A stretch of 43,619 nucleotides of DNA from the NCBI GenBank assembly GCA_937921995.1, contig CAKZVF010000018.1, positions 1 to 43,619 of the forward strand, given 5' to 3'. The notes under the pieces were generated by a model. The model had not been told where the DNA came from, made no database searches, and saw only the letters and a program-made list of their open reading frames with translations. This DNA is from an uncultured Pirellulaceae bacterium. GTDB lineage: Bacteria > Planctomycetota > Planctomycetia > Pirellulales > Pirellulaceae. Position numbers and translations under genes: made by a program. Positions 5,404 to 31,160 of this stretch are shown here, piece by piece; positions within the stretch are counted from its first letter, which is position 1, and each line of letters opens with the position of its first letter.

Positions 5404-5566
5404 AAAATAAAGATGTAACGCTGCCATCCTCACATTTCCCGCAAGAATTGATCACATTTTGACATTTTTCTTGGGAAGCTAATAGGTGACTGCGTGCAAG
5501 AGGCATGTGTAAAAGACCCCGAAAACCAAACGAACGTGGCGTGCTGGAATTTGCTATAATCTTGAT

Positions 5567-5827
5567 ATGGCGAACAATGCTTACACCACCGATACCACGC
5601 CCGAGGCACAACAGGTCCAGCTGGAGCTGTGGAAGTCAATGACAGGGCAGCAGCGCGTTGAAAAAGCTCTGGCATTGTCACAGCAAATTCGATCTATGGC
5701 CTTCGCTGCGATTGCCAGACGGCATCCCGATTTCGACGCAGCGCAAGTTCAACTGAAATTTATTGAACTAACCTACGGCCGGGAACTGGCAGCTGATTTT
5801 GAATGCTGGGCAAAGGAGCAGAATTGA
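5567..5827 (+). CDS. Small conserved-looking hypothetical protein
   Basis: An 86-residue, mostly helical protein with no signal peptide or membrane segment. The core contains QRVEKALALSQQIRSMAF, followed by RRHPDFDAAQVQLKFIELTY. I recall this arrangement from small uncharacterised proteins of planctomycetes and cyanobacteria, but I cannot name a function. Plus-strand signals are weak: the ATG lies 4 bp after TTGATA and there is no Shine-Dalgarno site. It converges with the TIM-barrel gene, 41 bp apart. A toxin-antitoxin role is possible for such small proteins, but no partner gene is visible. Confidence 0.7.
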   Translation: MANNAYTTDTTPEAQQVQLELWKSMTGQQRVEKALALSQQIRSMAFAAIARRHPDFDAAQVQLKFIELTYGRELAADFECWAKEQN

Positions 5828-5868
5828 ACCAGCCCGCATTACTCGCAGGCTGGCATTGCCCGACTGTC

Positions 5869-6909
5869 CTACGCTCCCATCGCGTCTTCGAAGGAACCTT
5901 CTTGGACCGGGAAGCACAGGTTGTCCCGCACATAGGCGATTCCGTCGGCGCTGGTCGCGTCGCCATCGCGGTAGTTACTTTCGGCTTCGACGACCAATGG
6001 CGCTGAATCGGTGCCCATGACGCTGCAGTAGCGTTGAGCGTAACCGAGTTTCATCATGACTTCGACGTAACGTGTCATGTTCAAATCGCCGGTTGCCAGA
6101 TCGGTGAATTGCATCGCGCGATTATGCCAGTTGCCGTCCATTTTGCGGAGAGGAACACCGTTGTGGATGGTGAAATTCTTCACGTGGCAGCCGTAGATTC
6201 GATCGCCCACTTTCGTGAAACGCGTCTCCCAGTCCTCGCCCTCCCAACAGTGCGAAGGATCTGCGTTGACGCCGAGACACTTATCCCCGTCGCAGATATC
6301 GACCAACATGTTGAATTCATCGGCGCACATCGCTCCGGTTCCCGGGTGAATCTCGTGGGCCAGAATCATGCCCAGCGAATTGGCGTGGTCACGCAGCTTT
6401 TGCGTCTTGGTGACAAAACGCTCTTGGCCTTCTTTCATCAAATCGAAATCGCCACCGGCCCAGAAACCCCACGGATAACCCGTTGCCATTTCCCAGCCAA
6501 ACGCCACACCCCAGAACATAGGCAGGATTTTGATGTTCAGTTCGGCCATAAGATCCATCAACCGGATGCAATAGTCTTCGTAGAATGCTTCGAGTGCATC
6601 GGGCGATTTCCCGGCTTGGGCTCCGTGAATAAATGGGTTGCCACTTTTGGTGCCCGTCCAAACACTGGTGTGCAGCCAAAACGGGCAGTGACCCGAGATG
6701 CCGTCCATCTTCAAACCGTTTTTCTCGAACGCCGATTTGATCTCGTCAGCGGACTTAAATTTCGTACCGTCCTCGGAGGCGTCGAGCATATAGTTCGAGG
6801 GTTGGGCTCCGCTGGCACCAGATGCTTTGGCGAATGCGAGAAAATCATCGAGTCCCTTAGGACCGTGTTGAGCACCTTCGATGCTGGAGTGGAAAATCGA
6901 CTTTGGCAT
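5869..6909 (-). CDS. Sugar phosphate isomerase/epimerase-like TIM-barrel protein (AP endonuclease 2 family)
   Basis: A 346-residue cytosolic TIM barrel of the xylose-isomerase-like superfamily. Metal-ligand positions can be followed along the barrel: Glu in LAHEIHPG, Asp/His in VNADPSHCWEGED, His in YGCHVKN and a late Glu in VVEAES. These match the four-ligand site that carries one or two divalent metals. Such proteins isomerise or epimerise sugars or inositol derivatives, and planctomycetes encode many with unknown substrates. ATG 6909 fits the first strand, KSIFHSS. The gene stands alone, so the substrate cannot be inferred. Confidence 0.85.
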   Translation of the reverse strand: MPKSIFHSSIEGAQHGPKGLDDFLAFAKASGASGAQPSNYMLDASEDGTKFKSADEIKSAFEKNGLKMDGISGHCPFWLHTSVWTGTKSGNPFIHGAQAGKSPDALEAFYEDYCIRLMDLMAELNIKILPMFWGVAFGWEMATGYPWGFWAGGDFDLMKEGQERFVTKTQKLRDHANSLGMILAHEIHPGTGAMCADEFNMLVDICDGDKCLGVNADPSHCWEGEDWETRFTKVGDRIYGCHVKNFTIHNGVPLRKMDGNWHNRAMQFTDLATGDLNMTRYVEVMMKLGYAQRYCSVMGTDSAPLVVEAESNYRDGDATSADGIAYVRDNLCFPVQEGSFEDAMGA

Positions 6910-7099
6910 GGCTTACTTCCGAAGCGTTCGCGAGTGTTCTTGAACGTCAAATGGGTAGGGAACGGTAAAGGAATACTGGTCAATCAAATCTAAGTGGACC
7001 ATTTTGGTCGTTCACTTATCTCAACGCAACTGTTTTGCTTGGGGAACTTCCCAGATCGGGCAAATTCATTGAACAAGTATTCCATTTGGAAAATGATAC

Positions 7100-28498: not shown

Positions 28499-30721
28499 TT
28501 AGCCAAGATACTCCGAGGAGATCACTTCGAAGTCGAACGGTGTGACACCATCGTCGACCGAGAAAACGGATTCAGCAGACTCCGCTGAATCGACCGCTTC
28601 GCCGCGCGCCTGAACATGAAGGGCGAACAACTCGCCTAGGTCAGGCTTGACCAACGTCTCGATGCCGACGCCATAGTGAACCATGCCGCGCATGTTTGAT
28701 TCGATGTTGATTTGATAGCCTGGCATTGAACGAAGCGCGAGATCTGCCCAGATAGCAGACCGATCTTCCAAGTCGATCAACATCGGAATGGAGATGCGAC
28801 TATCGGACGCCAAGTCAATCTTGTCTTGGACGGTTGCCGGTTCGTAAATTTCGCCTGAGTTTGGTTTCTTGCGAGACATCCAACCAAAGTAGCACTGGGG
28901 CAAGTCGCAAAACGGGTTGCTGGTGAATGACTGAATCGAACACACGATGTACCGGCCTCCAGCCGCGCGGAGTTTTTCGATGTCGATATCAATGAATTCG
29001 CTCGCACCCTTAGGAGCCGACGTAATGTCGCCACTATGGCAGCAACCGAGTCTGGTCTCTTTCAGATTCGTGTAAGAGATGTGACTCAAGTATGACCAGT
29101 TGTTGCCAAAGATTGTCGCCGACAGATCAAGGTCGACGCGGCCAGTTTTTTTGCCGTTGATCTTGCCTTCTTTCCACCACAGGAAGAAGCGCAGAACATT
29201 GGAATCAGGAAGTGCCAAACGCGAACCACGAGCCAACGTCTGCAACGACTTGTTGGCCGAACGCTGAGAAAATGGAACCATGAAACGAGAAAGTTCAGGA
29301 GCCACGAAGGACTTGCCAAGCGGCGGCAACTGGGCAAATCGCGACACCAATGTTTGTCGGCAAACTTCCACAACGGCATGCGCGTGCTCTGGCGCGATAA
29401 GTTCTTTCGCCAGCGGAACACGGAACAGTTTCGACGTTTGTCCTTTGGGAAACACGGTTCGCATAGGTGCAACGGGTGAAGTCTGCTTCCGGATTGGCTT
29501 CGTCAGAGATTTTACGGCCTTTTCAAAGAACTTCAGGGACTTTTCCTTTGGCACATCCTGCAGCATTCGTGGCGTTTGGTCCTGCGCGCGGTTGTTAAAG
29601 TGAGCAATCAGCTGAAGCAAAACGGGGGTCGATACTGCATCTGCAACCTGTTGAAACTCGTTAATAACGAAGGTCGCTTTTGCATTTGATTCGCGCAACA
29701 GCTGATCCAGTCGGCGCGCGAGCTCTCCGGGCCGTGTCTTCAACAGCTCAGTCGCCGCCATGCTGTCGCCCTCACGTAGACGGGCTTCGACCTTCGAATT
29801 GAAAGTCTCTGGTACTTCGCCGTCTCGGATTTTCTTAATCGCTGCGAACGCGTTTGGGAATCGTGTCGAATATTCACCCGGATGCAATCGTTCGGCCAAT
29901 CGAATCCACTTGCCGCGATGGCGATAGAGATCTTCATCAGGTCGGGATACGCGATCCAACGCACCCAAAAGGTACCGGCGGTGTTTGCGCTTGAAAGACA
30001 CATACCTCGTCGGAGCAGCAAGGCTCGCATCGCCTCCTGAAAGCTCTGTCGCGAGCCGCAATACATCGGTAGCCGTTCGTAGATATCGGCTCAGTGGCTC
30101 AGCCGAATCCTCAACGCGGTCCACAAGGAAGGCGCAAACGACTGATTGAACTTCCTTGAACGGAATAGATTCGGGCAGAACGTCGTTGATGTTGTCTCGG
30201 AAGGATTCCAGCAAACCGCGCAGATCTTTCAAATCTGATTCTGAAAGCGAAGTGTTAGAGACAAGCATAGAACGACACAAATCGAGCGCCTCGTCTTCGC
30301 TGGCCAGTTCCAATACTTTAAGATTTTGCTGAACCGGCAGCTGAGGACGCTGCTGTTTGTCGTAGTACGGCAAGATACGTTCGCCGATCCAATCACCCCA
30401 ATAATGAAAGTGCGCGTTGAGATAGAGTTCCGCGTCTGCCATCTCCATGACCTGAGTCGGAAAGTTTGGATACATTGGTGCGTATTTCACGTCGCCGCCG
30501 ACCATCTTCAGCAACTGTGGAATCAACGGTTCGGCAAATTCAAGCAGTTGCTGAGGCGTCCAGTTCAACAATCGCTCAATGACTTCAGCTGAGAACGTGA
30601 ATCCGATGGACTCGAGATTCTTCAATAGCGACGCAACGAACTCGGGTCGTGTTTCCCCTGAACGTTGCGCAACGGAGACTTTTCGCAATCGTTGAAGCAC
30701 TATCTTTTGGGCACGGTTCAT
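28499..30721 (-). CDS. Large helical protein with C-terminal TerD-like domain, partner candidate of the tRNA-like RNAs
   Basis: 740 residues from ATG 30721. Residues ~1-370 are helical with basic patches and motifs RYVSFKRKHRRYLLGALDRV and KWIRLAERLHPGEYSTRFPN, giving a HEAT/TROVE-like character without the vWA/MIDAS part of Ro proteins. Residues ~525-670 resemble TerD: GRVDLDLSATIF, CHSGDITSAPKGASEFIDID and the following strand YIVCSIQSF. TerD domains bind calcium and belong to stress and RNA/phage-defence gene sets. AAAGGA lies 13 nt before ATG; a TTG at 30763 is in frame but lies inside the terminator hairpin, so I reject it. The gene is directly downstream of two Y-RNA-like RNAs on the same strand, so I infer it binds them. 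Exact family not recognised. Confidence 0.7.
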   Translation of the reverse strand: MNRAQKIVLQRLRKVSVAQRSGETRPEFVASLLKNLESIGFTFSAEVIERLLNWTPQQLLEFAEPLIPQLLKMVGGDVKYAPMYPNFPTQVMEMADAELYLNAHFHYWGDWIGERILPYYDKQQRPQLPVQQNLKVLELASEDEALDLCRSMLVSNTSLSESDLKDLRGLLESFRDNINDVLPESIPFKEVQSVVCAFLVDRVEDSAEPLSRYLRTATDVLRLATELSGGDASLAAPTRYVSFKRKHRRYLLGALDRVSRPDEDLYRHRGKWIRLAERLHPGEYSTRFPNAFAAIKKIRDGEVPETFNSKVEARLREGDSMAATELLKTRPGELARRLDQLLRESNAKATFVINEFQQVADAVSTPVLLQLIAHFNNRAQDQTPRMLQDVPKEKSLKFFEKAVKSLTKPIRKQTSPVAPMRTVFPKGQTSKLFRVPLAKELIAPEHAHAVVEVCRQTLVSRFAQLPPLGKSFVAPELSRFMVPFSQRSANKSLQTLARGSRLALPDSNVLRFFLWWKEGKINGKKTGRVDLDLSATIFGNNWSYLSHISYTNLKETRLGCCHSGDITSAPKGASEFIDIDIEKLRAAGGRYIVCSIQSFTSNPFCDLPQCYFGWMSRKKPNSGEIYEPATVQDKIDLASDSRISIPMLIDLEDRSAIWADLALRSMPGYQINIESNMRGMVHYGVGIETLVKPDLGELFALHVQARGEAVDSAESAESVFSVDDGVTPFDFEVISSEYLG

Positions 30722-30740
30722 GAAGATATTCGCATCCTTT

Positions 30741-30795
30741 AAGAAAAACCAGCTGTTCGCCAAACGCGTGAGCTCTTGCTTGGTGAACAGCTGGT
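30741..30795 (-). terminator. Strong intrinsic terminator or attenuator between the tRNA-like RNAs and the TerD-like gene
   Basis: On the minus strand ACCAGCTGTTC-A-CCAA (30795-30780) pairs with TTGG-C-GAACAGCTGGT (30763-30748): 11 plus 4 base pairs with one mismatch. A TTTTTCTT tract follows at once (30748-30741). It would end the RNA transcript. Only 20 nt separate the tract from ATG 30721, and the AAAGGA ribosome site begins right behind it. So expression of the protein would need read-through, or the structure acts as an attenuator. Confidence 0.85.
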
Positions 30796-30803
30796 ATCAA
30801 AAG

Positions 30804-30931
30804 TGGTGGAAATTGAGAGCACTGAAATACCGGTGCTCTGCCACTGAGCTACTCTCCCCGAAGAGAGAGGTGGGAATCGAACCCACGACATCCGGTTCCG
30901 GATTTAGAAGGAAGCACTCTCATAGCCACCA
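30804..30931 (-). ncRNA. Circularly permuted tRNA-like RNA, copy 1 (Y-RNA-like)
   Basis: Minus-strand order: GAGAGTGCT (30921-30913), unpaired conserved TCCTTCTAAAT, ACCGG, variable ATGTC, T arm GTGGG-TTCGATT-CCCAC (30886-30870), 3' acceptor CTCTCTC (30869-30863), TTCG tetraloop (30862-30859), 5' acceptor GGGAGAG (30858-30852), TA, D arm GCTC-AGTGGCA-GAGC (30849-30835), A, CCGGT, ATTTC, AGTGCTCTC (30823-30815). The acceptor stem pairs in 7/7 positions with one G-U. CCGGT/ACCGG is the anticodon-stem equivalent. GAGAGTGCT pairs with AGTGCTCTC. An outer GGTGG/CCACC helix adds 5 bp. It cannot be aminoacylated, as there is no free 3' acceptor end. YrlA-type bacterial Y RNAs have this topology. Confidence 0.85.
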
Positions 30932-31038
30932 ACTGAATTGTCGCCTTTTGGCTTACCGAAAGCAAGCAATCGGGCTTGTGAAGTAGTAATTAGCAGACAG
31001 GAAACCTCGGCGAAGGTTCGGACAAATAGAAAAGTAGC

Positions 31039-31160
31039 GGTACTTGAGAACGCTGGCTCCGATGTTCTATCCAACTGAGCTACTTGCTTCGAAAAACGAG
31101 GTAGGGCTCGAACCCACGACCAACGGGTTTAATCTAGAAGGAAGCGTTCTCGTAGCAACC
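31039..31160 (-). ncRNA. Circularly permuted tRNA-like RNA, copy 2 (Y-RNA-like)
   Basis: Same plan as copy 1. GAGAACGCT (31151-31143), conserved TCCTTCTAGAT, CCG, variable TGGTC, T arm GTGGG-TTCGAGC-CCTAC (31117-31101), 3' acceptor CTCGTTT (31100-31094), TTCG (31093-31090), 5' acceptor AAGCAAG (31089-31083), TA, D arm GCTC-AGTTGGATA-GAAC (31080-31064), then AGCGTTCTC (31054-31046). The acceptor stem has one A-C mismatch, the D stem one C-A mismatch. The outer helix is perfect over 9 bp and carries the compensatory change relative to copy 1. Upstream promoter signals (31165-31240) are unclear. Both copies would end at the terminator at 30741-30795 if co-transcribed. Confidence 0.82.

Follow-up and report, generated by a model that had tools for sequence, protein, structure and literature searches.

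Two small RNAs encoded on the minus strand of a 43,619-nucleotide contig of an uncultured Pirellulaceae bacterium (the whole stretch is referred to as the window) are likely, judging from sequence comparison, to be the tRNA-bearing form of a modular RNA family that works like a Y RNA, with the adjacent MXAN_6230/SCO0854-type protein in place of Ro/TROVE. Y RNAs and Ro are a textbook pair of noncoding RNA and protein. We hold the existence of the RNA family and its link to the NF041916-type gene to be nearly certain. The family is large and apparently undescribed, and in many bacteria and phages its members adjoin the gene for the same uncharacterised protein. These data point to a second RNA-protein partnership, one resembling yet distinct from the Ro/Y RNA particles.

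Both RNAs lie upstream of the gene for the 754-aa protein, on the same strand (Table 1). A first-pass annotation had described two circularly permuted tRNA-like RNAs here with the order T arm, 3' acceptor strand, UUCG, 5' acceptor strand and D arm, and this order was confirmed on the minus strand for both copies. From 5' to 3', copy 1 consists of the outer helix, the internal loop CUAU, the inner helix, UCCUUCUAA, a remnant of the anticodon stem, the permuted tRNA and the 3' strand of the inner helix. Its T arm is GUGGG-UUCGAUU-CCCAC, its acceptor CUCUCUC-UUCG-GGGAGAG (7/7 pairs) and its D arm GCUC-AGUGGCA-GAGC; the anticodon stem, CCGGU/ACCGG, is retained with 5/5 pairs. Copy 2 forms 5/5 pairs in the T arm, 6/7 in the acceptor, 3/4 in the D stem and 3/5 in the anticodon stem. 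Because the anticodon stem is retained in both copies, the RNA ends fall at the position of the would-be anticodon loop. The 9-bp helix that the RNA termini had been said to form is also present in both, as GAGAGUGCU/AGUGCUCUC in copy 1 and GAGAACGCU/AGCGUUCUC in copy 2, with the differences between copies that the annotation had named and with compensatory changes in the family. In copy 1, the inner helix ends with the first two bases of the CUUCCUUCUAA element.

Table 1. Positions in the window of the two RNAs, the parts of copy 1 and the neighbouring protein gene.
Feature	Position	Strand	Basis
754-aa protein, MXAN_6230/SCO0854 relative (NF041916)	28499..30763	minus	NCBIfam; AlphaFold2; Foldseek
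RNA copy 1, ~126 nt, tRNA-bearing	30805..30930	minus	sequence; model R1 119.2 bits (in training); Rfam YrlA core 40.6 bits
RNA copy 2, ~122 nt, layout as copy 1, weaker outer helix GGU/ACC	31039..31160	minus	sequence; R1 93.5 bits (in training); YrlA core 28.7 bits
Copy 1 outer helix GGUGG/CCACC	30930-30926 / 30809-30805	minus	sequence
Copy 1 inner 9-bp helix, 5' strand	30913..30921	minus	partner-swap test; RNAalifold
Copy 1 inner 9-bp helix, 3' strand	30815..30823	minus	partner-swap test; RNAalifold
Copy 1 CUUCCUUCUAA element	30904..30914	minus	invariant and nearly invariant columns, alignments A3 and A7
Copy 1 T arm	30870..30886	minus	topology scan; T arm pairs in RNAalifold
Copy 1 acceptor stem, 3' strand first, UUCG-closed (UUCG 30862-30859)	30852..30869	minus	topology scan; RNAalifold
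Copy 1 D arm	30835..30849	minus	topology scan; RNAalifold

ARAGORN found no tRNA in the window, and Rfam at the gathering level found nothing there. In a scan for the permuted topology, copy 1 scored 20.8; the highest score among 30 mononucleotide-shuffled versions of the window was 18.55. Copy 2 scored 18.8, barely over the shuffle maximum, and an unrelated place in the window reached 18.85, so that topology alone is no proof of copy 2. It is secured through its likeness to the family, with 93.5 bits from model R1, which has both copies among its 24 training sequences.

The same permuted RNA was found beside NF041916-family genes in two other genomes of the phylum, G336 (locus L079) and G213 (L084), and also in Rhodococcus phage Weasels2, Rhodobacter phage RcXuper, Ruegeria phage RpAliso and viral contigs. 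Alignment A3 contains 24 of these long RNAs, both window copies included, and R1 was built from it; the training set includes the window, G336 and G213. Run on A3, RNAalifold independently arrived at an inner terminal helix, a T arm, an acceptor stem and a D arm, an architecture conserved by compensatory change: 21 of the 23 consensus pairs show it. When the strands of the inner helix were exchanged between RNAs, mean energy was -9.5 kcal/mol for native partners versus -4.2 for swapped ones; 14 of the 24 RNAs had no equally good partner among 23 swapped, and the other ten had 1-9. Likewise, the anticodon stem formed 3.96 of 5 pairs natively versus 2.51 after swapping. Within the UCCUUC region of A3, CUUC after UC/UA is invariant (24/24). 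The UUCG cap described earlier is indeed present in both window copies, but it is incidental: of the 24 RNAs, 4 have an acceptor loop that reads exactly UUCG, namely the two from the window, L166:3846 and L167, and we rejected the cap as a family feature. ACCA follows the 3' acceptor strand in 5 of the 24, a pattern that we infer would be expected if the gap between two tandem tRNA genes had become the loop.

The long RNAs score 70-122 bits with R1. At E <=0.001, the model matched 143 of the 246 genomes of the window's phylum; many of the matches listed were partial and confined to the tRNA-like core, and therefore only matches of at least 70 bits were used. There were 7 of these, in G213, G336 and the window's own genome (G000), all sources of training sequences; two of the four R1 places in G213 (C937 and C831) are outside the training set. 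The topology scan at a score of 19.3 picked out 21 of 78 viral loci compared to 0 of 78 when shuffled, and some of its viral matches (e.g. L124, L125, L164 and L174) resemble neighbouring ordinary tRNAs.

R1 also gave end-to-end matches, mostly about 60-110 nt, adjoining NF041916-family genes; at many of these genes no RNA had been apparent before. The short forms inspected retain the outer and inner helices, an internal loop with CUAU-like and AAUUU-like sides, and CUUCCUUCUA, and a plain loop or hairpin replaces the tRNA. Alignment A7 holds 24 closely aligning short RNAs, and model R2 represents this form. The family consensus has an outer helix of mostly 4-5 bp, an internal loop that is CUAU-like on the 5' side and AAUUU-like on the 3' side, and an inner helix of about 8-10 bp; behind CUUCCUUCUA comes an insert that varies among a short loop, a hairpin and a circularly permuted tRNA. 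The permuted tRNA is an optional insert in the RNA family, and many copies are without it. The most conserved stretch outside the tRNA-like part (A3 and A7) is CUUCCUUCUA, a candidate protein-binding site. In the 15-pair short structure, 93.0% of cells were paired versus 64.6% in shuffles, and the covariation score was 0.766 versus 0.196 shuffled and at most 0.153 slid. Changes on both sides occurred at 11 of the 15 pairs across the 24 short RNAs, a count reached by 29 of 500 shuffles. The topology scan had been empty at L016-L018, yet R2 finds short RNAs there (all three loci are in its training set); the early negative is a limit of the scan. An Rfam search at E up to 1 gave no family match in the L107 stretch with its three short copies (best E 0.97), and at the gathering level on ten loci it gave only tRNA and tmRNA families.

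The short forms also bear on whether the window RNAs could be permuted tRNA genes with a functional tRNA as mature product, possibly tRNA-Arg(UCU), a scenario we regard as having almost no likelihood. The T, acceptor, D and partly the anticodon stems are present as such genes would require, the ACCA of five long RNAs would suit them, and CUUCUAA can presumably be read as an anticodon loop, which would give tRNA-Arg(UCU). However, the short forms keep CUUCCUUCUA and both helices without a tRNA, so the motif belongs to the stem, and the terminal helix is maintained by compensatory change. We rejected the idea that CUUCUAA is an anticodon loop left from a captured tRNA-Arg, since short forms carry the motif without the tRNA.

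Occurrence of the RNA followed that of the gene almost one to one in the genome sets searched. In the window's phylum, R2 matched 9 of the 11 genomes with NF041916 (four of the nine are in its training set) versus 1 of the 235 without, and the association rises to 10/11 if the long form is counted. The window's own genome was counted through a partial R2 placement on copy 1 (30.1 bits); R2 misses copy 2. Also missed were G336, which has the long form, and G161, in which the gene is broken. The tenth genome with a match, G222, has no NF041916 and scored weakly (27.8 bits). Within the family of Paenibacillus turicensis (G392, the genome of L004), for which 148 genomes were searched, R2 matched 46 of 46 genomes with NF041916 (one of them, G392, in training) versus 3 of 102 without, or 49 in all. 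G506 and G522 contain only pieces of the NF041916 gene; G442 and G498 have an R2 match and no NF041916 match. Fisher tests, which ignore kinship between genomes, gave p = 7e-14 for the phylum and p = 4e-35 for the G392 family. In the window's own family, R2 matched 5 of 148 genomes, namely all 4 with the protein (149-genome protein search; three of the four in training) and G086. The 24 training RNAs of R2 include G219, G213, G190, G338, G025, G020, G127 and G392; matches outside training come from G000, G196, G165, G296, G325, 45 other genomes of the G392 family and plasmid loci L215-L224.

Records with a protein match were examined for 15 of 32 plasmids and 9 of 11 phages. For the viral set, 64 of 78 loci were used after 14 near-duplicates were dropped, with R2 at E up to 0.05. 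An R2 match was found in 57 of the 64, with 1-6 matches per locus at a median distance of 174.5 nt (123 within 500 nt), and all 150 of 150 matches were on the gene's strand. The seven viral gene loci without a match were L151 and L160, in both of which the contig end cuts the gene, and L170, L171, L176, L183 and L184. Thirty other gene-bearing stretches (the window and two G161 pieces included) gave R2 matches in 25, with the long form in L079; 44 of 44 matches were on the gene's strand, the weakest counted being L105 (19.6 bits) and L100 (21.9 bits). Ten further plasmid loci from Streptomyces, Kitasatospora, Embleya, Deinococcus, Mycolicibacterium, Hymenobacter and Vibrio yielded matches in 8, again all on the gene's strand (10/10), with four weak ones of 21-25 bits in Kitasatospora, Embleya, Hymenobacter and Deinococcus. 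Other protein loci without an R2 match were L101, L103, L221, L222 and the broken gene of G161. Conversely, tblastn found no NF041916-family frame in the stretches around four R2 matches, L232 (G086), L233 (G222), L234 (G219:C8, a second R2 place in G219, near a contig end) and L235 (G455). At these places the protein may be divergent, its gene may lie outside the stretch, or the RNAs may be orphans.

Proximity to the gene on the same strand, together with the U run that follows the outer helix in many short copies, could also indicate a cis-regulatory element, that is, a leader, attenuator or autoregulatory protein-binding site and not a particle RNA. We find this unlikely. The RNA lies upstream only in 26, downstream only in 13 and on both sides in 18 of the 57 viral loci, a mixed placement that suits a trans-acting RNA; moreover, a locus may hold up to 6 matches, and the insert is variable, extending even to a whole permuted tRNA. 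A type III-like toxin-antitoxin pair, with an antitoxin-like repeat RNA and the protein as toxin, would likewise place structured RNA units in tandem right next to a single protein gene. That pairing is very improbable, given that the aligned family proteins are mostly 680-910 aa, the window's protein has a TerD fold, the RNA units are often downstream of the gene, and PADLOC gave no match.

The 754-aa protein is the presumed partner of the RNAs. Its match to NCBIfam NF041916 (MXAN_6230/SCO0854 family RING domain-containing protein) scored 471.1 bits (E 6.8e-141) and so fell short of the 600 bits set as curated cut-off; by this profile match it is homologous to NF041916 but outside the equivalog. 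Pfam gave no match for the protein, hence none to RING or PF05731, and this member of the family is in that respect a relative without a RING match. Among 10 relatives scanned, Prok-RING_4 was above cut-off in L093 and L094 and weak in L096. The AlphaFold2 model, made from alignment A5 (48 members), had a pLDDT of 88 and a pTM of 0.86 and, with Foldseek, gave a layout of a helical N-terminal region and a C-terminal TerD fold. The TerD matches 2kxt, 3ibz and 2qz7 had E values of 2.3e-5 to 1.8e-4, and the six PDB matches at E <=0.001 were four TerD or TerD-homologue chains, 2qng (a protein of unknown function) and 9a6r. Annotations such as 'TerD family protein' suggest that a C-terminal TerD fold is a feature of the NF041916 family, and the window protein has it. 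The fold is common to the TerD of Ter stress proteins; in contrast to those, TerD in the window protein shares its chain with a long helical region and is linked with an RNA. Among the best 50 of 437 Foldseek matches, there was no Ro structure and, for the N-terminal region, no confident known RNA-binding fold. When hhalign was run against 15 TROVE sequences from the phylum, not all of them complete, the probabilities were 2.0 for the whole protein and 2.7 for its N-terminal part, and detectable TROVE homology of the partner protein was rejected on these values. A literature search under the names MXAN_6230 and SCO0854 found no paper.

Bacterial Y RNA is circularly permuted relative to tRNA, according to an excerpt of PMC11472068, and the YrlA type is built of modules, its basal stem serving Rsr and its tRNA-like domain PNPase (excerpt of PMC8394870). 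Rfam YrlA (RF02553) at E up to 0.001 matched 63 of the 246 phylum genomes, including 9 of the 11 with NF041916. The likeness to YrlA that the first-pass annotation had drawn was borne out in part: at relaxed thresholds RF02553 matched the core of copy 1 (40.6 bits, E 1.5e-7) and copy 2 (28.7 bits, E 4.3e-4), with only core positions 23-87 aligned, without the terminal stem, and below the gathering score of 69 bits. That score is a weak criterion for YrlA, as it was reached in only 3 of the 63 phylum genomes with a YrlA match. The two copies are the best two of 3 YrlA matches listed in their own genome; the third has E 0.86. Canonical YrlA in the phylum consists of CGGCGA-AUGC, a 7-bp inner helix, ACUAC, the permuted tRNA and ACUUG-UCGCCG, and a TROVE frame was found in 15 of the 28 YrlA loci examined. 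The new RNAs resemble the YrlA/Rsr system in having an end-to-end terminal stem, an internal loop, an inner helix, a short unpaired CUA stretch and a permuted tRNA with closed acceptor stem, which the window RNAs have, and in often lying beside their protein gene. They differ from YrlA in the sequences of the outer stem and internal loops, in the CUUCCUUCUA element, in the optional tRNA module, in the number of matches at one locus, and in a neighbouring protein with no detectable similarity to TROVE; the YrlA-type basal stem (CGGCGA-AUGC / ACUUG-UCGCCG) is absent from their consensus.

A rival reading takes the window RNAs for ordinary, divergent YrlA RNAs that act in trans for the TROVE protein of the genome. 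The annotation had noted no TROVE protein, which holds for the window, but there is one elsewhere in the genome (77% complete), on contig C158, with the window on another contig. The permutation is the same as that of YrlA, whose model matches the tRNA-like core, and shared ancestry is suggested by R1 scores of 65.2 bits on the TROVE contig C680 of G213 and 63.1 bits at a TROVE-adjacent YrlA locus. We nevertheless rate this explanation as quite improbable. The YrlA-specific outer stem and internal loops are absent, R2 at E up to 0.05 had no match in 15 TROVE/YrlA loci, and in the phylum set the RNA follows the MXAN_6230-type gene, whereas no more than 14 of the 246 genomes have a TROVE match; two of these 14, G000 and G213, carry the MXAN_6230-type gene too. 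The earlier suggestion of a Y-RNA-like system with a partner other than TROVE is thereby supported, in that the window RNAs have another terminal stem than YrlA and their family goes with the adjacent gene.

Several loci with TROVE or YrlA deserve separate description. The TROVE gene of the window's own genome (L003, G000:C158, 685-2255 and 2697-4379) is beside seven tRNA genes, and a weak R1 match at 1780-1905 (28.1 bits), where a T arm leads into acceptor and D-arm-like sequence, is perhaps the Y RNA of that TROVE; among the 39 R1 matches listed, L003 is the one that lacks the short-form motif. The match in G213:C680 lies at 6895-7029, about 400 nt from a TROVE match at 5542-6468, and its score is between those of the two RNA classes. 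L050 and L051 (G296 and G325) have strong YrlA-type RNAs of 66.8 bits, and blastp finds no TROVE frame in these loci; both genomes have an NF041916 match above the curated cut-off.

We think it quite likely that the RNA and the MXAN_6230/SCO0854-type protein form a physical ribonucleoprotein. The proposed layout resembles that of the Ro60/Rsr-PNPase particle (RYPER) as given in an excerpt of PMC8394870, with the protein on the basal stem and the module as effector; unlike RYPER, the new system has a C-terminal TerD fold and no Ro similarity, either by profile or among the best 50 of 437 Foldseek matches. In this two-part model, the helical N-terminal region would bind the basal stem and the CUUCCUUCUA element, binding would depend on the stem and the CUUCCUUC element and not on the tRNA module, and the insert could be the effector. 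The tRNA-bearing form may engage tRNA enzymes or serve as a decoy, and the TerD domain may sense a stress signal. The particle could then serve tRNA or RNA surveillance or repair under stress and, in phages, protect translation during infection. A role in tRNA surveillance is a tentative proposal that we consider somewhat doubtful. Quite possibly, although we stop just short of favouring it, there is a second, Ro/TROVE-independent class of Y-RNA-type particle in several bacterial phyla and phages, composed of a helical-TerD protein and an RNA with a fixed basal stem and freely swapped inserts, captured permuted tRNAs included, and serving either tRNA surveillance or a counter-defence directed at tRNA-cleaving enzymes. 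If so, the same RNA architecture and the same permuted-tRNA trick would be found with another protein, and the design would have arisen or re-partnered more than once. A protein family known only by locus names would gain a concrete candidate RNA partner, and the reason for the presence of these genes in the tRNA arrays of some phages would become open to testing.

Some phage members have tRNA arrays, RtcB and an annotated tRNA nucleotidyltransferase nearby, and some plasmid members have RtcR and an RNA ligase. An excerpt of PMC7790460 describes an rsr-yrlBA-rtcBA operon that is switched on when tRNA fragments accumulate, and an excerpt of a jumbo-phage survey notes that a small fraction of phages have TROVE and connects tRNAs and ligases with the repair of host-inflicted damage (PMC7824862). 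The tRNA and RNA-repair context of some members fits the proposed mechanism but is not general. Five queries for such neighbours each found only their source locus, plus L100 for the nucleotidyltransferase, and among 95 neighbouring viral ORFs scanned there was no dominant family, the commonest being HNH, in 5. We therefore rejected a universal RNA-repair operon, as such neighbours are sporadic. In phage RcXuper, a permuted tmRNA (RF04321, 108 bits) lies just before the permuted tRNA-like RNA, and ARAGORN found a permuted tmRNA in RpAliso as well (L100 3216-3632; L105 2864-3207). VWA domain genes are near both of the Streptomyces plasmid copies of the protein, L094 and L095, with an RNB ribonuclease also near the former and an AAA ATPase near the latter.
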